DNA of 64,000 nucleotides. Origin: Pseudomonadota bacterium. Its GTDB lineage: Bacteria > Pseudomonadota > Gammaproteobacteria > Ga0077536. The notes beneath the pieces were generated by a model. It had not been told where the DNA came from. It made no database searches and saw only the letters and a list, made by a program, of their open reading frames with translations. The stretch is from NCBI GenBank assembly GCA_018668255.1, contig JABISZ010000052.1, positions 1-64,000 of the forward strand, in the 5' to 3' direction. The translations under genes and the position numbers were made by a program. Within the stretch, counting starts at the first letter, position 1, and every line of letters starts with the position of its first letter. Positions 5,396 to 31,137 of this stretch are shown in pieces.

Positions 5396-5800
5396 TTATT
5401 TAACTTTTGTTTCATAGAAAAATTCACCGTCCTTAAAGAACCCTTTCTCGGATGCTCCGTCTGTATGGCTGTAGAGGCCTCTTCCGTTCTTTTCCCGGTT
5501 CTTGAACTCGCCAACATATTTGTCCCCACTTGAGTAGGTATAGGTACCTTGTTTGTGGAACAGACCATCCTTGAATGTGCCGACGTACGCTTCTCCGTCA
5601 GCATAGGTGTATGTGCCTTGGCCGCTATAATTGCCGTCCCTAAGTTCTCCGACATATTTACTTCCACTTGCGAAAGTAACAGTTCCAAAGCAGTTATCCA
5701 TGGGCTCTGATTCAGAGCAATCTGGCAAGGCAAAGGTTTGACTAGACTGCAGAAGAAGTAGGCCACCGACTAAAGAAAATCTAAGGCATCTGTGCATCAT
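5396..5800 (-). CDS. Exported MORN-repeat protein
   Basis: 134 residues: a signal peptide (about 1-25, ending TFA) and then four MORN repeats of about 23 residues each, recognisable by repeated YVGEF/YVGTF, Gly-x-Gly and ADGE/SGDK turns (about residues 40-130). MORN repeats form elongated beta-hairpin stacks that bind membranes or partner proteins. The signal peptide places this one in the periplasm or envelope. A much larger MORN array fused to a TonB-dependent receptor lies at 22541-25795 in the same window. Two overlapping frames exist in this stretch; this one has the signal peptide and the repeats. Two consecutive ATG codons at the start leave its exact position one residue uncertain. 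Confidence 0.85.
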   Translation of the reverse strand: MMHRCLRFSLVGGLLLLQSSQTFALPDCSESEPMDNCFGTVTFASGSKYVGELRDGNYSGQGTYTYADGEAYVGTFKDGLFHKQGTYTYSSGDKYVGEFKNREKNGRGLYSHTDGASEKGFFKDGEFFYETKVK

Positions 5801-20204: not shown

Positions 20205-20301
20205 TTTTTCAGCAATAATTATTTCTTATGCTCAATGTGGGGTTTTTTCTCGTTAGAGCATATATTAGGTTTGATTTTTGTGTTTCTTACAGGCGTTCAA
20301 T

Positions 20302-22134
20302 ATGTGTGGAATTGTCGGGGCGATAGCTCAGCGTGATGTGGCGCCAATATTATTGGAAGGCTTAAAACGCCTTGAATATAGAGGCTATGATTCAGCCGGT
20401 ATTGCAGTTATAAATAACAAAGGTGTTCTAAAAAGAAATCGTTCTGTGGGAAATGTTGCAAAACTAGAACTTTCTATGGGAACTGATTCTTTTTCTGGCG
20501 GCGTCGGTATCGCGCACACACGCTGGGCTACACATGGAAAGCCGACTGTGAATAATGCCCACCCCCATGCATATGAAGATAGTGTGGCAATAGTCCATAA
20601 CGGAATTATTGAAAATCACGAACTTCTTAGAGAAACGCAGAAAAGTAATGGCTATAGCTTTAGCTCTGATACCGACACAGAAGTGATCGTCAATCAGATC
20701 CATCAGTCCTTGAGTGAAAACAACACTTTACTAAACTCGGTGACATCGACTTTATCCATGCTTAAAGGAGCTTATGCCTTAGCTGTTATGGGTCGAGACG
20801 AGCCGGATAGACTAATTGTTGCACGACGAGGCAGCCCTATTGTCATCGGATTGGGCGTTAGAGAGAATTTTGTTGCCTCTGATGTACATGCGCTATTAGC
20901 GGTTACTCAGAGGTTTATATTTTTAGAAGATGGCGATGTTGCCGAAGTTACACGAGATGATATTGTCGTGTACGACGAAACTGGTTCTAAAGTAGAACGT
21001 TCTGAGAAAATAGTGCCGATATCTGCTGATGCTTCTGGTAAGGCTGGCTATAAGCATTTCATGCAGAAAGAGATCTTTGAGCAGGCGACCGCTGTTTCCG
21101 AAACTCTAGAAGGTAGAATTGTAGATGGTAATATTGCTGAAGGGGGCTTCGAGCCAGGAGTCCTAGCTGCCATAAGCACAGCTAGATCTATTAGCATAGT
21201 AGCTTGTGGTACTAGTTATCACGCTGGTTTGTTAGCTAAATTTTGGTTTGAGGAATATGCCGGAGTAAGGTGTTCAGTAGAAGTTGCGAGCGAGTTTCGT
21301 TATAGGCAGCCTGTAGTCTCTGAGCAAGAGCTGTTTATAGCCATTTCTCAATCTGGAGAAACTGCTGACACTCTTGCAGCTATTCGATATGCAAAGGACC
21401 TCGGCTATCATTCAACTTTAGCAATTTGTAATGTAGTGGAAAGCTCTTTAGTTAGGGAAGCTTCGCACTCAATAGTGACTAGGGCAGGTCCAGAGATAGG
21501 GGTAGCTTCAACAAAAGCATTTACTACTCAGTTAGCCGTGCTGATGATCATTGCCGCTATCCTGACCGAAAATAAGCCTAAGGGGAAAGCTTCAGTCGCA
21601 GAATTAGTCTCTCAGCTAGCACATCTGCCCGCCATGATAAATGAAGTGCTAGAACTTGAGGAAAGCATCTACGCATGCGCGTCTGAACTGGCTGATGCGA
21701 CCCATGCCCTTTATATAGGTCGAGGAGTAATGTATCCCATAGCGATGGAAGGTGCATTAAAGCTTAAAGAAATTTCATACATCCACGCGGAAGCGTATCC
21801 TGCGGGCGAGTTGAAACACGGCCCCCTTGCCCTTGTGGATGAGAAAATGCCGGTCATAGCCCTTGCACCAAGTGGTCAGTTAGTTGAGAAGCTGAAATCT
21901 AATCTCGAGGAGATTAGTGCGAGAGGGGGGATGATTTTCAGCCTAACTGATAATTTGGCGGGGCTTAGGGCACAACATCGACCGCATGAGATCGTCTTTA
22001 ATTCGGGCGCGGGTTTCTTGACTCCTATTGTCTATAACGTCGCTCTACAATTGCTTGCCTATCACGTTGCGGTTTTGAAAGGCTCTGACGTAGATCAGCC
22101 ACGTAATTTAGCTAAGTCAGTGACTGTGGAGTAG
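20302..22134 (+). CDS. glmS: GlmS, glutamine-fructose-6-phosphate aminotransferase (isomerizing)
   Basis: 610 residues from ATG 20302. The start is fixed by chemistry: the catalytic Cys must follow Met1 (Met-Cys-Gly-Ile-Val-Gly), so the longer TTG frame is rejected. The glutaminase domain (about 2-240) contains YRGYDSAG and HTRWATHG; two SIS sugar isomerase domains follow (about 285-610), with the C-terminal DVDQPRNLAKSVTVE conserved. The enzyme makes glucosamine-6-phosphate, the entry step to peptidoglycan and LPS. No glmS ribozyme is expected or seen upstream; the 97-base gap after tRNA-Pro is too short and AT-rich. Confidence 0.98.
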   Translation: MCGIVGAIAQRDVAPILLEGLKRLEYRGYDSAGIAVINNKGVLKRNRSVGNVAKLELSMGTDSFSGGVGIAHTRWATHGKPTVNNAHPHAYEDSVAIVHNGIIENHELLRETQKSNGYSFSSDTDTEVIVNQIHQSLSENNTLLNSVTSTLSMLKGAYALAVMGRDEPDRLIVARRGSPIVIGLGVRENFVASDVHALLAVTQRFIFLEDGDVAEVTRDDIVVYDETGSKVERSEKIVPISADASGKAGYKHFMQKEIFEQATAVSETLEGRIVDGNIAEGGFEPGVLAAISTARSISIVACGTSYHAGLLAKFWFEEYAGVRCSVEVASEFRYRQPVVSEQELFIAISQSGETADTLAAIRYAKDLGYHSTLAICNVVESSLVREASHSIVTRAGPEIGVASTKAFTTQLAVLMIIAAILTENKPKGKASVAELVSQLAHLPAMINEVLELEESIYACASELADATHALYIGRGVMYPIAMEGALKLKEISYIHAEAYPAGELKHGPLALVDEKMPVIALAPSGQLVEKLKSNLEEISARGGMIFSLTDNLAGLRAQHRPHEIVFNSGAGFLTPIVYNVALQLLAYHVAVLKGSDVDQPRNLAKSVTVE

Positions 22135-22540
22135 TTCTCAAAGGACGCATTATTGAAGTCCAATATTATCTTTCCGTTGATATTACAGTAAGAATATCAA
22201 ATCTACTTCCAACTCCTCTAACCCAATACCAAGACCTCTTGTAGGTGAAATCCTCGTCCTAACTCAGTTGATGAAGAAGTCCTACAAACTGTCTGTAATC
22301 GGTAAGTTTAACTTTTGGCCTATCTACCAGTTAAGTAAAGAACATTTGCTGAGGTTTCGATCCTTTGGAGAAAAGGTGACGTAAACAATGGGCATGGTGG
22401 GATAAGCGGAGTGTATCCCTGATACACAGCGCTATTGACCTTTCTGGGAGTGAAAATATGTTAAAATTCATCCGTGTGATGATCAATCTCGTAATCTCGC
22501 ACTGACGTTCACCTCAGAGTAGTTCGAAACGGAGGGAAGA
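22135..22540. other. Intergenic region with two perfect inverted repeats upstream of the MORN-TonB gene
   Basis: About 405 bases with no gene. Two perfect inverted repeats are visible: TTGATATT at 22177-22184 against AATATCAA at 22193-22200 (8-base spacer), and GTGTATC CCT GATACAC at 22411-22427. The first could be a glmS-end hairpin but has no T-run. The second, about 114 bases before the next start, is a good shape for a repressor or activator site. A TTGACC at 22435-22440 could be a -35 box, though no good -10 follows at the right distance. No Fur-like box or recognised riboswitch seen. Confidence 0.45.
22411..22427. repeat. 7-bp perfect palindrome with 3-base centre
   Basis: GTGTATC and GATACAC arms flank CCT; the outer bases GCG/CGC can extend the stem after a two-base gap. 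It is the closest dyad to the MORN-TonB gene and sits just before a TTGACC -35-like box. Confidence 0.55.
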
Positions 22541-25500
22541 TTGGTAACTCTAGATAAGCGCTTAACAGACCTTCGGTCTCTTGTTCGAGAAACAGCAGTG
22601 AAAAAAGCCACCCTTACATTCTGTATGACGATGATTTTTTTTCTCGGAAATTCTAGTTTAGTCCGCTCTGAAGGCATCTGGCTGGCAATCAAAGAGAACC
22701 CAAAATGCTTTGTATGGAATCAGCCTGCTGAGCACACAAATGAGCCTTCTCAAACTGCATCTTGGAATGGTACCTGTCTAAATAGGAAAGTCCATGGAAA
22801 AGGTACATTTATTTGGAGATTTGAAAAAAATGTTCTCAGAGAAGAGCAAATATTTGTCGGAGAATTTAAAGAGGGAAGAAAAACCGGACTGGGTACTCTT
22901 ACTTGGGCGAGTGGCGACAAATATGTCGGTGAATTTAAGGAAGGGAAAAGAACAGGACAGGGCTCATATAGCTGGGCGATAGGCGATAAATATGTAGGTG
23001 GGTATCAAGATGATAAAAAGCATGGACAAGGTTCTTTTGCTTGGGCGAATGGTGACAAGTATGTAGGAGGGTGGGAAGACGACAAAAAGGAAGGACAGGG
23101 AGTTCTTAGTTGGGCAGATGGCGATAAATATTCCGGTAGTTGGGAAGACGACAAAAGAGATGGAACAGGTACATATAAGTGGGCGAATGGTGATATGTAT
23201 GTGGGCGGCTGGAAAGACGATAAAAGGCATGGGAAAGGTATCGGAACCTGGGCGAATGGTAACAGATACGTCGGTGAATTTAAGAAAGGAAGAGAGGCCG
23301 GACCGGGTACTCTTACTTGGGCCAATGGAGATAAATACGTCGGTGAATTTAAGGATGGGAAAAGAACAGGACAGGGCTCGTATAGCAGGGCGATAGGGGA
23401 CAAATATGTGGATGGTTCTCAAGACGACATTGTAATCTTGGCGCAAATGCCGATAAATGCAAAGAGATCTTCAGCCCTAGTAACACATGTCGTCACTGCT
23501 TCTGAAATAGAGAATGCTAAAGCTACGGACTTGACTGAATATTTGAGTCTATATACCCCTTCAGTGTCTATTAACTCCGCTCAAAACAACCCTCTGCAGC
23601 CTGATTTACAATATCGAGGGTTTAGCGCATCACCACTTTTGGGGCTTTCGCAGGGATTGGTTGTTTACCAGAATGGAGCGAGAGTGAACGAACCCCTGGG
23701 CGACTCTGTGAACTGGGACTTGGTTCCGGATAGCGCTATTGAGCGGGCCAGCCTATTGGCAGGAGGTAATCCTTTGTTCGGCTTAAACGCGCTCGGAGGA
23801 GCATTATCCCTGACATTGAAAAATGGTTTCACTTACGAGGAACGAGAAGCCGAAATTAGAGGTGGTTCATGGGGACGTTTTAGTAATACTTTGCAAATAG
23901 GTGGAAATGATGGCCGTTGGGGGTATTACGGGAATATATCTTTTTTTCAGGAAGATGGCTGGCGCGAACTATCCGACTCCGAAGCAGTAAACCTCTATGT
24001 GAGTGGAAGCTATCGAGGTGCCGAGTCGGAGGTTGATCTTGGTTTATATTATGCTGATACAAAGCTGATTGGTAACGGCGCATCGCCAAGAGGATTGCTC
24101 AATCTTTCTCGAAAAGCAATTTTTACTGCGCCTGATATTACCGAGAATAATATGAAGATGGTGACGGTAGAGTCTAAAAAAAATTTCGGAGATAACTTCA
24201 CCTCCTCTAGCAATATATTTTATCGAGACGTTTCTTCATTGAGTTTCAATGGAGATAGTTCTGATTTAAGTTTATGTGATCTAGCTGCGGGTCCAAAACT
24301 AATCGATGGATTCGATGAAAATAAGTTGGAAAGTTTAGGCTTAGATGAGGACGACGTTTGCGAAAATAATAGCTTGGATGTTTCTACAGTCAATCAACTG
24401 GAAGATATTCTAAATCTGAAATCATCTAGTAAAAAACTTCAGTTTGATTTAGAGGATGTGACAAATAAGATTTATGCGGGCACTAGTCTTAGTGACGAAG
24501 CAATCAACAATACCTCTTCAAGAGACCAAAAAAGTTACGGAGCAGATATTCAAGGTTTGTATAGAGAGCCGTTCTACAGTTTCGAGAATAGTTTGTTTGT
24601 TGGTGTCGGGTATCAACGAGGTACATCGAAGTTTGATTCCCAAACAGAGTTAGCTACCCTTGATCCAACAACTAGAAGCACTTGGGGACTCGGTCTTGGT
24701 ACTTTTTTGTCGGAGGAAAAGACTAGAGTCTCTACGTCTACCTCTACGTGGAGTGCTTACTTCTTGAATACGCTAAATGTGAAAGAGGAACTCGCAATAA
24801 GTCTTGGTGGTCGATACAACCGAACCAGAGTATCTTTGAAGGATCGTACAGGAGTCCATCCAGAGATTGAGGGGCGTCATTTGTTCAGACGGTTTAACCC
24901 TACAATTTCTGCTGTGCTGAATGTAACTAAGCACAACGATTTGTATATCACTTATGGTGAATCGTCGCGGGCTCCTACTCCAATTGAGTTAGCCTGCAAT
25001 GATCAGGTTTTCACTATAGCCCGCGCAGCGGCGGAAGCGAGAGGGGAGGACCCTGATGATATTGATCTAGAATGTCGTCTACCAAATGCCTTCCTTGCCG
25101 ATCCACCATTAGAACAAGTTGTCGCAGAGTCAATTGAATTCGGTACGCGCGGCTCGCTTGATTTCGTAGACTATCAGTTGAGTTTTTTCCGCACGAACAA
25201 TAAAAATGACATTATTTTTCAAACGACTGGTAGAGGAAAAGGTTTGTTCAGTAATGTTGATAATACGAGGCGAGAAGGTATCGAAACCTCTCTCAAAGGA
25301 AATATCCGAAAATTTTCTTGGGTAGTTTCTTATAGTTTCATAAAAGCGACATTTGAAGATGATTTTAGAGTTTTAAGTCCAAATCATCCACTTGCAAATG
25401 CGGATGGAGATATTTTTGTGCAAAAGGGAGATTCAATTCCAGGTATTCCCGAGCATCAGTTTAAATTCACGTCAGACATTGACGTCACCGACAAACTAAA

Positions 25501-25795
25501 TGCTGGAATCGAGTTTTCTCTGTTCTCTGACCAATTTCTGCGGGGCGATGAGTCTAATGATTTACCAACTATTGGAGGCTATGCTGTTACGAATATTAAA
25601 GTGAATTATTCTTTTTCCCGAAAATTAGATTTTTTTGTGCGCGTAGCGAATATTTTTGATAGAGATTATGAGAATTTCGGCCTAATAGGGGAGTCGCCGG
25701 AAGAAGTGCTCCCTGATTTAGAAGACAATAGCCCACGTTTTTTAGGCTCAGGCTCTCCCAGAGCCGCCTGGGTAGGCATTAGTTTATTGTTTTAG
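22541..25795 (+). CDS. MORN-repeat array fused to a TonB-dependent outer-membrane receptor
   Basis: 1084 residues in one uninterrupted frame, starting with TTG at 22541 (GGAGG five bases upstream). A signal-like hydrophobic segment (about 22-45) is followed by roughly nine MORN repeats of 23 residues (about 75-294; pattern GDKYVGEFK-x5-GxG). At residue 295 the sequence changes to DDIVILAQ, a TonB-box-like start, then a plug domain (LTEYLSLYTPSVSI, LQYRGF, NPLFGLNALGGALSL) and a 22-strand-type barrel with SSRAPTPIELAC, ending in a terminal Phe. Receptors of this kind import siderophores, cobalamin or glycans with energy from TonB-ExbBD. A periplasmic MORN array ahead of the plug is unlike the known N-terminal signalling or carboxypeptidase-like extensions. 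The array carries a recent internal duplication. Substrate unknown. Confidence 0.9.
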   Translation: MVTLDKRLTDLRSLVRETAVKKATLTFCMTMIFFLGNSSLVRSEGIWLAIKENPKCFVWNQPAEHTNEPSQTASWNGTCLNRKVHGKGTFIWRFEKNVLREEQIFVGEFKEGRKTGLGTLTWASGDKYVGEFKEGKRTGQGSYSWAIGDKYVGGYQDDKKHGQGSFAWANGDKYVGGWEDDKKEGQGVLSWADGDKYSGSWEDDKRDGTGTYKWANGDMYVGGWKDDKRHGKGIGTWANGNRYVGEFKKGREAGPGTLTWANGDKYVGEFKDGKRTGQGSYSRAIGDKYVDGSQDDIVILAQMPINAKRSSALVTHVVTASEIENAKATDLTEYLSLYTPSVSINSAQNNPLQPDLQYRGFSASPLLGLSQGLVVYQNGARVNEPLGDSVNWDLVPDSAIERASLLAGGNPLFGLNALGGALSLTLKNGFTYEEREAEIRGGSWGRFSNTLQIGGNDGRWGYYGNISFFQEDGWRELSDSEAVNLYVSGSYRGAESEVDLGLYYADTKLIGNGASPRGLLNLSRKAIFTAPDITENNMKMVTVESKKNFGDNFTSSSNIFYRDVSSLSFNGDSSDLSLCDLAAGPKLIDGFDENKLESLGLDEDDVCENNSLDVSTVNQLEDILNLKSSSKKLQFDLEDVTNKIYAGTSLSDEAINNTSSRDQKSYGADIQGLYREPFYSFENSLFVGVGYQRGTSKFDSQTELATLDPTTRSTWGLGLGTFLSEEKTRVSTSTSTWSAYFLNTLNVKEELAISLGGRYNRTRVSLKDRTGVHPEIEGRHLFRRFNPTISAVLNVTKHNDLYITYGESSRAPTPIELACNDQVFTIARAAAEARGEDPDDIDLECRLPNAFLADPPLEQVVAESIEFGTRGSLDFVDYQLSFFRTNNKNDIIFQTTGRGKGLFSNVDNTRREGIETSLKGNIRKFSWVVSYSFIKATFEDDFRVLSPNHPLANADGDIFVQKGDSIPGIPEHQFKFTSDIDVTDKLNAGIEFSLFSDQFLRGDESNDLPTIGGYAVTNIKVNYSFSRKLDFFVRVANIFDRDYENFGLIGESPEEVLPDLEDNSPRFLGSGSPRAAWVGISLLF
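22856..22995 (+). repeat. Copy A of a 140-bp direct repeat inside the MORN array
   Basis: Matches 23270-23409 with about 18 differences (about 87% identity by my count). The spacing is exactly 414 bases, i.e. 138 codons or six 23-residue MORN units, so the copies are in register with the protein repeats. Confidence 0.85.
23270..23409 (+). repeat. Copy B of the 140-bp direct repeat inside the MORN array
   Basis: Partner of 22856-22995, displaced by 414 bases. Copy B ends 13 bases before the change from MORN repeats to the TonB-box-like segment. Confidence 0.85.
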
Positions 25796-25834: not shown

Positions 25835-26221
25835 ATGGATTCAATTATGGCATCAGAAAAGTTAGTGAAGGTATTGATAATATTCAGTCTAGGCGCTGTC
25901 GGTGGGATTTTTTCTGTTATGCCGGAGGACCCAGCGCTTATCGATGCGCCATTCAGCTATTTTGATATTGCTTTACCTATCTATACGATTTCATGGCTGG
26001 TAAGTCTCTTCTTATTGTTCAAATTTCATCCGTCTGGACGGTCATTTTTTACTGTTATATTGGCCTTAGGTGTGCCAATCACTCTAGGGATTCCTGAGTC
26101 TAAGCTCGCCACTAGTAACATGTACGATATGTTGTTTTGGTTAAGTGGAATGATTGACGGAGCATTATTGGCAATTCTATACTTGACCGACATCAAGGAA
26201 CGATTCAACAAATTCATCTAG
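25835..26221 (+). CDS. Four-helix membrane protein, unknown function
   Basis: 128 residues with four hydrophobic segments (about 11-28, 41-62, 68-84 and 98-117) and short loops; the C-terminus is charged (DIKERFNKFI). I do not recognise a family. It follows the MORN-TonB gene by about 40 bases on the same strand and may be co-transcribed, but no functional link can be read. Start ATG at 25835; an in-frame ATG at 25847 is equally possible. Confidence 0.7.
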   Translation: MDSIMASEKLVKVLIIFSLGAVGGIFSVMPEDPALIDAPFSYFDIALPIYTISWLVSLFLLFKFHPSGRSFFTVILALGVPITLGIPESKLATSNMYDMLFWLSGMIDGALLAILYLTDIKERFNKFI

Positions 26222-26324: not shown

Positions 26325-28340
26325 TTGGCTAACACCGAAACTAATAGATACAGCCGCGTCCTGCGCAAACTAAAAATCGGAAATCTAGAAATAAAAAATA
26401 GAATCATGATGACCGGCCATACTCAGCTCTATGGAAAAGACGGCACGCTTAGTGAACGTCACATTAATTATTACCAAGAGCGTGCTAAAGGCGGCGCCGG
26501 ACTTTTGATTTTAGAACAACAGGCAGTGCATCCTGCGGGTCGAAACTACCAAGCAGGTTGCTTGGCATGTGACGAGCGTGCCATCCCGTGGTATAAAAAA
26601 TTAGGTGAAGCGGTTCATAAATATGATTGTAAGCAGCTTGTGCAGCTTTTTGCTTGTGGAGCGCAAGGTGATGGTACACAGTATATGGATGACTGGAGGC
26701 CTTTATGGGCTGCATCAAGAATCCCTTCGGCGGTTACTGAGGAAATGCCAATTGCTATGGAGCAAGAGCATATTGATGAATTGATAGCGCACTTCGTAAA
26801 ATCGGCCGTAAACGTCAGCAAGTCTGGTTTGGATGGAATAGAAATCCATGCTGCTCATAGTCAACTGTTAGGGGAGTTTTTAAGTCCTGCCTTTAATAAG
26901 CGAGATGACAAATATGGGGGAGATCTAGAGAACCGTTGCCGGTTGATTGTCGAAATCGGGGAGGCCATTCGAAAAGAACTCGGGCCAGCATTTGTCATGG
27001 GATTACGAATTTCATTCGATGAGTATTTGGGGGAAGCCGGTATCACTTCGAAACAGGCTGAAGAGCAATTGGCCATATTTAAATCAAAGAATCTATTTGA
27101 TTTCTATGATATATCAGCCGGTGGATATCATACTTTGCACATCGCGGTCGCTCCTATGGGGACTATGAAAGATGGATTTCTGGCAGAAAGCGCAAAAAAG
27201 GCTCGGAAAATTCTAGGGCCGGAGATCCCTTTATTTATCGTCGGTCGCTTTTTAACCTTGAATCACGCAGAAAAAATACTAGCGAGTGGTGACGTTGATA
27301 TGGTTGCGATGACCCGCGCTCATATGGCTGATGCACATCTAGTTAACAAAAGTATAGAGAACAAAGAAAATGAAGTAACGCATTGTATTGGAGCAAACAT
27401 ATGTATCAGTCGGCTTATCAATAATAGAGAAGTAACGTGCTTTCAAAATCCTGAAATGGGCCGAGAAGGAAATTGGGGTAAAGGAACTTTGGTCCCCGCA
27501 AACGACGCTCAAGAAATCTCAGTGATAGGTGGAGGGCCGGCTGGTCTGAGATTTGCCGGTACAGCTGCTCTTAGAGGACATTCAGTAACACTCTTTGAGT
27601 CAGAAAGTGATCTGGGCGGCAGAATTAATTTACTCAAAAAACTACCAACGCGTGCTACTTGGCAAAGAGCTATAGATAACTTAGTGACTCGCGCGGAGAT
27701 TGCTGGAGTAAAAATCCATACTTCCAGTAAAATCGTTGAATCAACGATGCAAGGAGATATCTCAGTTTTTGCAACGGGTGCTCTTTGGGAAACCAAAGGC
27801 TACAGCCCCTACCGACCTGAAAGGGCAGCGATTCCGGGGCATAAATTTCCAATTGTGACTGACATAAAGACTGCCGTTGAATTAGCCTTATCCTCTTCTG
27901 AGGCCTTGGGAAAAAATGTCGTTATAGTCGACGAAACGGGGGAGTATCTTCCGCTTGGGCTTGCAGAATTATTAGCCAGCAGGAAAGTCTTCGTTGAAAT
28001 AATTTCGCCTCGGCCATTTATAGGTGCTGACACTCAAAGAACATTAGATATGCCTTATTTGATGCCTCGCCTTAAAACTTTAAATGTCCGGCTTAGTGCA
28101 CAGCACTTTGTAGAAGAGATCTTCGAGGATGCCATATCGGTTTACGATATATGGGGAGGAGCGCCAGAGCGACGCTCGAACATTAGTGCTGTAGTCCTCG
28201 CCATGACACAGACTCCAAACGACTATTTATATCACAAGGCAAAGGAAGACTATCGTGTTCAAAGAGTGGGTGACATTGTAGCGCCAAGACGGATTGAGGC
28301 GGTAATCTTTGAAGCAGAAAAATGCGCGCGCGACATATAA
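26325..28340 (+). CDS. Old-yellow-enzyme/2,4-dienoyl-CoA reductase-type flavoprotein
   Basis: 671 residues with the layout of trimethylamine dehydrogenase and FadH: an FMN-binding TIM barrel (about 10-340; HxxH-type motif IEIHAAHSQLLGEFLSP and R/N residues in KYGGDLENR), a cluster-binding linker, then an FAD/NAD(P)-binding half starting at ISVIGGGPAGLRFAG (about 398-412). In the linker three of the four usual Fe-S cysteines are present (Cys354, Cys360, Cys372) but the second is Ala357. That may weaken or alter the 4Fe-4S cluster, or may mark a subfamily near the amine demethylases. Start is TTG at 26325 with GGGGAG upstream. Substrate not determinable; an enoyl or N-methyl compound is the family expectation. 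Confidence 0.85.
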   Translation: MANTETNRYSRVLRKLKIGNLEIKNRIMMTGHTQLYGKDGTLSERHINYYQERAKGGAGLLILEQQAVHPAGRNYQAGCLACDERAIPWYKKLGEAVHKYDCKQLVQLFACGAQGDGTQYMDDWRPLWAASRIPSAVTEEMPIAMEQEHIDELIAHFVKSAVNVSKSGLDGIEIHAAHSQLLGEFLSPAFNKRDDKYGGDLENRCRLIVEIGEAIRKELGPAFVMGLRISFDEYLGEAGITSKQAEEQLAIFKSKNLFDFYDISAGGYHTLHIAVAPMGTMKDGFLAESAKKARKILGPEIPLFIVGRFLTLNHAEKILASGDVDMVAMTRAHMADAHLVNKSIENKENEVTHCIGANICISRLINNREVTCFQNPEMGREGNWGKGTLVPANDAQEISVIGGGPAGLRFAGTAALRGHSVTLFESESDLGGRINLLKKLPTRATWQRAIDNLVTRAEIAGVKIHTSSKIVESTMQGDISVFATGALWETKGYSPYRPERAAIPGHKFPIVTDIKTAVELALSSSEALGKNVVIVDETGEYLPLGLAELLASRKVFVEIISPRPFIGADTQRTLDMPYLMPRLKTLNVRLSAQHFVEEIFEDAISVYDIWGGAPERRSNISAVVLAMTQTPNDYLYHKAKEDYRVQRVGDIVAPRRIEAVIFEAEKCARDI

Positions 28341-28393
28341 CACGAAGTTAGAAAGTAAGCTTGTACTTACTAAGACTTGTAGTGACCATTAAA

Positions 28394-30667
28394 TTATACG
28401 GATAGGGAAATGTCATTTTTAAGGATGGGTAATTTTCTCACCTTAGGTCCTCCGGCCGTGTGGATAGCGTCAATAAGCGCCGCTATCACAACCGGAACTG
28501 GACCTTCTCCGATACCACTTGGGAGCGTGGTATCAGAAGACGCGATGTGAACATCGATAGAAGGCGTGTCTTTTAGTCGTAGAATAGGATAATCATGGAA
28601 ATTGCTTTGTTCAACTCTTCCGTTATTAAGAGTGATCTCGCCATATAGTGCATTTGAAAGTCCAAAAACTATAGCACCAGCTACTTGTGTTTCGACTAAT
28701 TGAGGGTTTACTGCAAGGCCACAGTCAACAGAAGCAACAACGTTCTTTATTTTCAAAGTACTGTGGTTTTCACTCATTTCAATTTCTATTGCAATAGCGA
28801 CGACTGAAGCACCAAGTCCAGGTGCATAACTCATGTCAAAAACGGCATAGCCTACCGAACCACGGTGATTCGGATCGGGTTTGTTATCCATTTTTTCTAC
28901 AGCGTGCAGTAGACGCTCTCTAAATTTCTTAATCCGTGAGACAGCGTCTTCATAAGTGCTTGCAATTTCTAAATTGTGATACTCGGGGGCTGTCTTCGAT
29001 ACTTTTTTCTCGTCTAAGAGTTTGAGTTGGAATGAGAGAGAGTCCATTCCTGCCAATTCCGCGAGTTCGCCAACGAAACCGTGGTACATCCACAACGCTT
29101 GGGTATGACCCACTCCTCTCATCCAAGCATAGGGAGGCGGGGTGCTGACGGTACTGTATTCGATTTTTAAATTGGGAACGGGGTAAACCATACGTGACAT
29201 AGCATACGGTTGATAGACTGATCGTCCTTGGCAGACATGGCTTTTCCAAGCGGTGATATTTCCGTCAGTATCTATGCCTCCAGTGAAGTCAGTTGTCATA
29301 ACCGGAGCATAGAAACTACGTTGCATATTTTCTTCTCTAGACCAGATCAGTTTAATTGGAACACCTTCCATTTCTTTGGCAACTTGCACAGCTTGGCTTA
29401 CATAGTCGCTATGCAGTCGACGCCCAAAGCTACCACCTGCTAACATAAGGTTGAATTTAGCATTGTATGGTGCAACACCGGCCGCGTAGGCAGTTATACG
29501 TAATGCTTCATCGCCATATTGTGTCGCAGCCCAGGCTTCTACCCGCCCATTCTCTATCAAAGCTGTGCAATTCATTGGCTCGAGTGCGGCATGTTCTAAA
29601 AATGGGTAGTGATATCTAGATTGAATTGTTTTCTCAGCCTTTAGGAAAGCAGAGTCAACGTCTCCTTCTTGGCGAATTACTTCGCCTTGTGTCATCAACT
29701 TATTGTTAATTTCCTGTGCGATCTGTGTGCTGCTGACATCCTTGTTCGCTCCCTCATCCCAGACGATTGGAAGGGCGTCTAGAGCTCGCTGTGCCTCCCA
29801 CCAGCTATCTGCAACAACCGCCACCGCATCATCCATGCGCCAATCAATTACTTCATAGAAGAAGGGAGGCACGGTATAGCCGCTTGGCCCAGCTTTGATG
29901 GCTACTACTTTTTGTACACCTTGATAGCTTTTTATTGCAGCGCTATCAAACGATACAAGATTCCCTCCAAAGACGGGACATTGCTTTACTGCCGCGTATT
30001 TCATTCCTGGCAACTTCAAATCTATACCATAGATAGCTTTCCCAGTGCTTTTGTCATAAGCATCACTGCGGGGTATCGGTTTTCCGATATAGCGCCAATC
30101 TTTCTGCGCGGTAGTTTTGATTTTTGAAGGATCGGGAATAGGAATAGTCGAAGCTATCTCAGATAGTTTGCCAAACCCCACCGAAGTCGAAGTAGCGGGA
30201 TTCATGACGTGATGATCCTTTATAACTAGCCCACGAGCATCAGTGTTCCAACGGCGAGCTGCCGCCAGTAGTAACATCTCTTTAATTTGGGCGCCTGCGA
30301 TTCGCATGGGACTAAATAGCATTTTCATGCCAAAACTCCCCCCCGAATATGTGTACACATATACGTTCTTACGATTGTAGTTTGTTAAAGGGTCGTAGAA
30401 TTCCCAATCGGTAAGACTAAGTTCTAAATTAATTTCTTCTGCTATTACTTGAGTCAAAGCAGTTGTAATTCCCTGTCCAAGTTCTATTTGTGGGATCCGA
30501 ACGGTGACACGATTGTCGTGATGAACAGTAATCCAAGAAGTAATTTCTTGCGGAACGTTCCCCTTTTTACTGGCGGAAAAAGCCATAGATGGAAGTGCAA
30601 GATTGAATACAATTGAGCTACCGGCTGATGCCGATAACGTTAAAAAATTTCGCCGAGTGGTTGTCAT
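28394..30667 (-). CDS. Molybdopterin-binding subunit of a xanthine-oxidase-family hydroxylase (IorB-like)
   Basis: 757 residues. The N-terminus TTTRRNFLTLSASAG is a twin-arginine signal, so the folded enzyme is exported to the periplasm. The large body belongs to the isoquinoline 1-oxidoreductase beta/aldehyde dehydrogenase branch: Moco-contact segments include GGSFGRRLHSDY (about 410-421), the AWMRGVGH region and the C-terminal GIGEGPVPVVIAALIDAI with the catalytic Glu. Members hydroxylate N-heterocycles or oxidise aldehydes and pass electrons through the 2Fe-2S subunit to a cytochrome. The partner gene overlaps by four bases upstream. No FAD subunit is present, as expected for the Ior type. 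Substrate unknown. Confidence 0.9.
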   Translation of the reverse strand: MTTTRRNFLTLSASAGSSIVFNLALPSMAFSASKKGNVPQEITSWITVHHDNRVTVRIPQIELGQGITTALTQVIAEEINLELSLTDWEFYDPLTNYNRKNVYVYTYSGGSFGMKMLFSPMRIAGAQIKEMLLLAAARRWNTDARGLVIKDHHVMNPATSTSVGFGKLSEIASTIPIPDPSKIKTTAQKDWRYIGKPIPRSDAYDKSTGKAIYGIDLKLPGMKYAAVKQCPVFGGNLVSFDSAAIKSYQGVQKVVAIKAGPSGYTVPPFFYEVIDWRMDDAVAVVADSWWEAQRALDALPIVWDEGANKDVSSTQIAQEINNKLMTQGEVIRQEGDVDSAFLKAEKTIQSRYHYPFLEHAALEPMNCTALIENGRVEAWAATQYGDEALRITAYAAGVAPYNAKFNLMLAGGSFGRRLHSDYVSQAVQVAKEMEGVPIKLIWSREENMQRSFYAPVMTTDFTGGIDTDGNITAWKSHVCQGRSVYQPYAMSRMVYPVPNLKIEYSTVSTPPPYAWMRGVGHTQALWMYHGFVGELAELAGMDSLSFQLKLLDEKKVSKTAPEYHNLEIASTYEDAVSRIKKFRERLLHAVEKMDNKPDPNHRGSVGYAVFDMSYAPGLGASVVAIAIEIEMSENHSTLKIKNVVASVDCGLAVNPQLVETQVAGAIVFGLSNALYGEITLNNGRVEQSNFHDYPILRLKDTPSIDVHIASSDTTLPSGIGEGPVPVVIAALIDAIHTAGGPKVRKLPILKNDISLSV

Positions 30668-31137
30668 GAGATTACCCCAGACGTTGCTCTTTTAAGCTTG
30701 GCAGCTGCGTGGATCGCTTTACGCACATAAGGGTAGGTTCCACATCGACAAATATTACCAATTGCGCTGTCGATTTCAGCGTCACTCGGTTCTGCATTCT
30801 TTTCCAGGAGCGCTATTGCCGCCATGATAATTCCGGACTGGCAGTAACCACATTGGGGTATATTGCCTTCGACCCATACTTTTTGCACTGAGTGTAATGT
30901 TTTTTCGCCAACGCCTTCTATGGTCGTTATCTCAACACCTTGAACGTCTTTGACTGGGATTTGGCAGGAGGGTACGGGTTGACCTTCAATATGAACTGTA
31001 CAGGCCAAACATTGAGCTATTCCGCAACCGAATTTAGTGCCGGTTAGACCAAGCTTTTCACGGAGAACCCACAACAAAGGCATATCAGGGTCTGCTTTTA
31101 CCTCCACTGATTTTCCATTGACTACAAATTTAGCCAT
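30664..31137 (-). CDS. 2Fe-2S subunit of the molybdenum hydroxylase (IorA-like)
   Basis: 157 residues (usual about 150-160) carrying two 2Fe-2S clusters. The plant-ferredoxin-type site is CGIAQCLACTVH (about residues 38-47) with the fourth Cys in VPSCQ (about 58). The second, alpha-helical site uses CGYCQSG and CRCGTY (about 97-100 and 130-132). It relays electrons from the molybdenum site of the following gene product. It has no signal of its own; by analogy it would be co-exported with the Tat-bearing large subunit. ATG at 31137 is preceded by GGAGG; its stop overlaps the next gene (ATGA). Confidence 0.93.
   Translation of the reverse strand: MAKFVVNGKSVEVKADPDMPLLWVLREKLGLTGTKFGCGIAQCLACTVHIEGQPVPSCQIPVKDVQGVEITTIEGVGEKTLHSVQKVWVEGNIPQCGYCQSGIIMAAIALLEKNAEPSDAEIDSAIGNICRCGTYPYVRKAIHAAAKLKRATSGVIS

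Follow-up and report, generated by a model that had tools for sequence, protein, structure and literature searches.

The window analysed here, a 64,000-nucleotide stretch of a gammaproteobacterial contig, contains at positions 22541-25795 a single open frame of 1084 codons with zero internal stops. Its product consists, in this order, of a putative signal peptide, a Cys-containing cap, a MORN array, a TonB box, a plug and a barrel. Receptors of this type take up scarce nutrients across the outer membrane. The features of this locus and of its neighbourhood are as follows.

5396..5800, minus strand: small exported MORN protein of 134 aa, a separate gene (Pfam MORN, E=2.5e-12)
20278..22134, plus strand: glmS-type glutamine-fructose-6-phosphate transaminase (GATase and SIS), the upstream neighbour of the fusion
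22531..22536, plus strand: GGAGGG, Shine-Dalgarno-like, before TTG 22541
22541..22597, plus strand: 19-codon N-terminal extension if TTG 22541 is used; 68% identical in the second species
22598..22672, plus strand: putative signal peptide with GTG start, assigned by eye
22673..22861, plus strand: N-terminal cap NPKCFVWN...SWNGTC (Cys56/Cys79) of the exported-MORN type, including the degenerate first MORN unit
22856..23013, plus strand: copy A of an internal duplication, MORN units 1-2
22862..23413, plus strand: eight 23-residue MORN units, residues 108-291
23270..23427, plus strand: copy B of this duplication, covering MORN units 7-8 as far as the junction
23423..23446, plus strand: TonB box DDIVILAQ at the fusion junction, aligning with EDEIHVIAQ of the unfused orthologues
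23462..23803, plus strand: plug, PF07715 (Pfam and structure match)
23831..25795, plus strand: beta-barrel of a TonB-dependent receptor and stop codon (Pfam and structure match)
25835..26221, plus strand: hydrophobic protein of 128 aa without a Pfam match, downstream of the fusion

Pfam analysis of the product gave matches above the cut-off to MORN (eight stretches, E=9.9e-46), Plug (residues 308-421, E=6.3e-13) and TonB_dep_Rec_b-barrel (residues 605-1038, E=4.5e-33), and the MORN region also matched the MORN1 structure 6t4d (E=3.6e-45). The initial annotation, made from the sequence without database searches, had described a MORN-TonB receptor in one 1084-codon frame, with about nine MORN repeats and a TonB-box-like segment from residue 297, and the frame and the Pfam domains bear this out. 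The count of nine is fair, given that eight regular units are preceded by a degenerate one at residues ~85-107, and the position of the TonB box was nearly exact, as DDIVILAQ begins at residue 295, directly ahead of the plug. The last MORN unit is also degenerate (W to R, G to D). No STN domain was matched by Pfam at E<=0.001, and MORN occupies that region. The domain order and the earlier proposal that the array, located between the signal peptide and the TonB box, would lie in the periplasm are both supported.

The fusion has two candidate starts, TTG 22541, with GGAGGG just upstream, and GTG 22598 (MKKATLTFCMTMIFFLGNSSLVRS), where the signal peptide itself begins and which is not preceded by an obvious Shine-Dalgarno sequence. 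The N-terminus from GTG 22598 is hydrophobic in both species that carry the fusion and was judged by eye to be a signal peptide; in the second species it terminates in LVHA/SS, by eye a classical SPase I site.

The second species belongs to the same genus (G001, contig CALKCL010000034.1) and was assembled separately. All 1084 codons of the two fusions align with zero indels and 91% amino-acid identity, and a counterpart of the 128-aa downstream protein, 92% identical, adjoins the fusion there as well. The locus thus represents a true gene fusion common to two related uncultured gammaproteobacterial species. Although the source assembly is fragmented (106 contigs), the identical junction in a separately assembled species, the distribution of the mostly synonymous interspecies differences over both sides of the junction, and a strongly constrained receptor with neither stop nor frameshift leave only a negligible probability that two genes were misjoined or that the fusion is decaying. 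A misassembly at about 23420, which the initial annotation had allowed for, can be dismissed on the basis of this shared junction, and its suggestion that homologues might turn out to be two separate genes does not hold, because the unfused receptor of the relatives sits elsewhere. It had also considered an internal start near 23420 that would produce a separate receptor; the candidate at 23447 has no Shine-Dalgarno sequence, signal peptide or TonB box and was rejected, and no Shine-Dalgarno sequence was found near 23408-23564.

To our knowledge of the available part of the literature on MORN repeats and TonB-dependent receptors, such a fusion has no report. We scanned for MORN repeats in 36 genomes of the family, 369 of the class and 398 of the phylum (overlapping sets, ~770 in total), and no other MORN-TonB receptor was found among the matches listed. 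Nine MORN loci with frames of 729-1062 aa were translated and rejected, none being TonB-receptor-like; by eye they were kinase-like, sulfatase-modifying-like, TPR-like, caspase-like and others. When the fusion was used as the query against the order (36 genomes), the remaining receptor matches all started at the TonB box or in the plug, and in a plasmid collection the MORN and receptor matches occurred at separate places, none spanning 80% of the query. The earlier view that the fusion is unusual is therefore upheld across these sets, and as far as we have searched the MORN arm is a TonB-receptor N-terminal extension of an unreported kind. Only a few N-terminal extensions exist among TonB receptors, and a mode of control is defined by STN, the one studied best.

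We compared the fusion with known systems. The nearest solved TonB-dependent receptors by sequence (PqqU/YncD, 9c4o and 6v81) have the TonB box, plug and barrel in common with it, whereas the fusion carries the extra N-terminal MORN array and shows low sequence identity to them. STN transducers of the FecA, FpvA and PupB type likewise carry an additional periplasmic domain after the signal peptide and ahead of the TonB box, but in the fusion this domain is MORN rather than STN. With an exported MORN protein of another family (L099, cap CLVWN...WSGPC) the fusion shares the signal-like N-terminus, the Cys cap pattern and the 23-residue units; proteins of the L099 type are free, however, while the array of the fusion continues into a receptor. 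A precedent for MORN fused to an integral membrane protein is MORN-heliorhodopsin, which has been reported from MAG lineages with an N-terminal MORN array (PMC8612252). It differs from the present case in lying on the cytoplasmic side of the inner membrane, in occurring in Firmicutes, in the membrane protein involved and in its typically three repeats (PMC8612252).

Unfused orthologues of the receptor were found in three other genomes of the genus (70% identical; one of the three records, isolate AG-390-I23, looks like a single-cell genome) and, at ~50% identity, in other genera. They have their own signal peptide, followed immediately by EDEIHVIAQMP, and DDIVILAQ of the fusion aligns also with a DDEIVVVA form of this segment. 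In the unfused members of the genus, the receptor is flanked on one side by a DUF1244-like gene (named by eye) and on the other by a beta-propeller gene associated with PQQ, and in two genomes of another genus (G017 and G023) it occupies the same place, accompanied by some additional genes. The DUF1244-like and PQQ_ABC_repeats-type genes are directly adjacent, with the receptor absent between them, in the genome of the window as well as in G001 and G003; in the window's genome, which has only one copy of the receptor gene, the gap is about 40 bp and no receptor relict was found there. The clean empty site at G000:C99:67931-70020 (L106), where relatives carry the receptor, belongs to a cluster that includes aldehyde:ferredoxin-oxidoreductase-like and PQQ_ABC_repeats-type genes, with pqqC ~10 kb off. 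From the empty old site and the unfused orthologues, we infer that the receptor moved, lost its own signal peptide and joined an exported MORN protein at the TonB box. The homologous glmS-Sel1 block of G002 contains neither the MORN gene nor the receptor, so both were probably brought to this place; no MORN donor gene was found in the G002 block examined. The G003 contig starts just past the fusion locus and is uninformative on the fusion, which has so far been seen only in one branch of one genus.

The junction falls on an acidic pair common to the MORN unit (YQDD) and the receptor TonB box, and this pair may have helped the joining. The stretch from MORN unit 7 through unit 8 to the junction duplicates units 1-2 (85% over 158 nt). 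With respect to timing, 15 sites favour a duplication before the species split and one favours later conversion; judged from these sites, the internal duplication predates the divergence of the two species. The history of the fusion is thus unusually well dated by the empty old site, the unfused orthologues and the junction common to two species.

The old place of the receptor also bears on its ligand. The old cluster scored 304 bits with TIGR03866 (cut-off 287) and gave a weak match to TIGR03863, and in G000, G004 and G017 the contig that carries the receptor or its empty site also contains pqqC. In G017 there are two copies of the receptor, each adjoined by a PQQ dehydrogenase. A distant homologue in Burkholderia multivorans adjoins a PQQ dehydrogenase and pqqABCDE, and a homologue in Methylobacterium nodulans (33% identical) lies near a lanmodulin-like EF-hand gene, named from its DPDxDGTxD motifs. 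Quinoprotein dehydrogenases of the genus and of G017/G023 (L116-L121, L123 and L124) have the motif PHDxWDYD, which we take to be the lanthanide-type signature, and the PQQ dehydrogenases beside the receptor in G017 have GETWDF instead. Those orthologues of the fusion that could be placed lie in PQQ clusters, a likeness to receptors of the LutH, LanA and PqqU type; with LutH and LanA the likeness is one of gene context and of the homologue near the lanmodulin-like gene. This gene context suggests that the ligand is probably tied to PQQ or lanthanide use.

The binding residues of PqqU have been reported as Y/F/W99, R304 and R365 (PMC12124388). In the fusion receptor, position 99 is Leu according to the plug alignment, in which R304 and R365 are unaligned, and the NCBIfam PqqU model gave 77.8 bits against a cut-off of 1200. 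As far as the published signature can be aligned, the receptor is therefore not PqqU.

On the Methylobacterium nodulans plasmid (NC_011887.1, L145:8806-12565), the TonB receptor, a response regulator and the lanmodulin-like EF-hand gene occur together, and a YncE-family gene is located a few genes beyond this group.

In an AlphaFold2 model of the fusion, the MORN part consists of successive beta hairpins (mostly at pLDDT 72-85), followed by a low-confidence stretch that includes the TonB box, and then by the plug and barrel. The receptor part (model residues 275-1065) matched BtuB, Fiu and FhuA with Z of ~35, and the range over BtuB and other receptors was 31-35. The mean pLDDT was 69, and the model gives no reliable MORN-plug geometry. 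A flexible link at this place would leave the TonB box reachable.

On balance, we lean somewhat towards the reading that this is a relocated receptor with a periplasmic MORN arm that docks proteins or dimerises, and with a ligand related to PQQ or lanthanides. In the ancestor of the two species, the receptor gene would have left the PQQ/quinoprotein cluster, losing its own signal peptide, and an in-frame fusion directly at the TonB box would have linked it to an exported MORN-repeat gene at the latter's 3' end; the MORN gene would supply the signal peptide and presumably the promoter too. After export, the barrel would be placed in the outer membrane, and the MORN array and cap (~250 residues) would hang from the N-terminus of the plug via the flexible TonB-box stretch, where TonB would still be able to engage its box. 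The arm would most likely bind protein, either dimerising receptors or providing a dock at the periplasmic mouth for a partner in the periplasm, such as a protein that carries the imported ligand. Such an arm is favoured because solved MORN proteins dimerise and bind proteins: biophysical work on a pure-MORN protein saw no membrane binding, and MORN arrays have been redefined as protein-protein and dimerisation modules (PMC7725318). That the arm constitutes a new periplasmic regulatory or docking domain, which brings either a dedicated partner or another receptor molecule to the plug and so controls PQQ- or lanthanide-related transfer or TonB access, seems unlikely to us. The gating of TonB access raised in the initial annotation is a possible role. 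A MORN arm would add a periplasmic protein-scaffold extension to the TonB receptors.

The relocated receptor may also simply have captured the promoter, ribosome site and signal peptide of the MORN gene, with the array as a folded and tolerated spacer, a possibility that we regard as serious even if we do not expect it to be correct. The receptor has lost its own signal peptide and the MORN one is the only one present, no promoter-like matches were found on the plus strand within 22462-24122, and the fusion is found in two species only. In addition, the MORN part and the cap evolve faster than the receptor. We calculated NG86 dN/dS between the two species and obtained 0.21 for the MORN array (bootstrap 95% CI 0.13-0.35), 0.07 for the plug and barrel (CI 0.05-0.11) and 0.63 for the cap (CI 0.26-2.1), the last showing no clear constraint, and amino-acid change was ~3x faster in the MORN part than in the receptor. 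These values suggest that selection maintains both halves as protein, with looser constraint on the MORN half, and the faster evolution of the MORN part together with the unconstrained cap means that a strict binding role is not demanded. However, the eight units have stayed in register without an indel in either species, though tandem repeats slip easily, and the dN/dS of the array is well under 1, which constraint on folding or on avoidance of aggregation could also explain. Between the two species, hardly any variation is seen at the aromatic and Gly positions by which MORN units are defined. The case suggests how fusion to an exported repeat protein can rescue a receptor that has lost its signal peptide.

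The docking or dimerising arm has also to be weighed against a role in cell-surface signalling, in which the MORN arm would act like STN and contact an inner-membrane regulator upon ligand binding. The arm does occupy the same topological place, ahead of the TonB box, and unfused orthologues in another genus adjoin response-regulator genes. However, MORN is unrelated to STN, the scanned neighbours include neither an ECF sigma gene nor a FecR-like anti-sigma gene, and the relocated gene no longer adjoins the old cluster, so that we consider this role quite improbable. Even less probable is a tether, with the array holding the inner leaflet of the outer membrane or peptidoglycan. The name of the MORN repeats and the early literature point in this direction, but the tool results give no support; moreover, the pure-MORN protein mentioned above does not bind membranes (PMC7725318) and the array is near charge-neutral (35 acidic and 39 basic residues). 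Both observations speak against the binding of the inner leaflet by the array that was proposed in the initial annotation.

Elsewhere in the window, a block at 26325-31137 that separates the fusion locus from the Sel1 gene contains an FMN oxidoreductase and a molybdopterin (xanthine-dehydrogenase-type) gene pair; the greater part of this block is missing from the second species or rearranged there. The free exported MORN protein that had been noticed at 5396-5800 is real; its gene is kept in the sister species, adjoining a uvrB-like gene (named by eye). Another exported MORN gene is located on contig C13 (L003).
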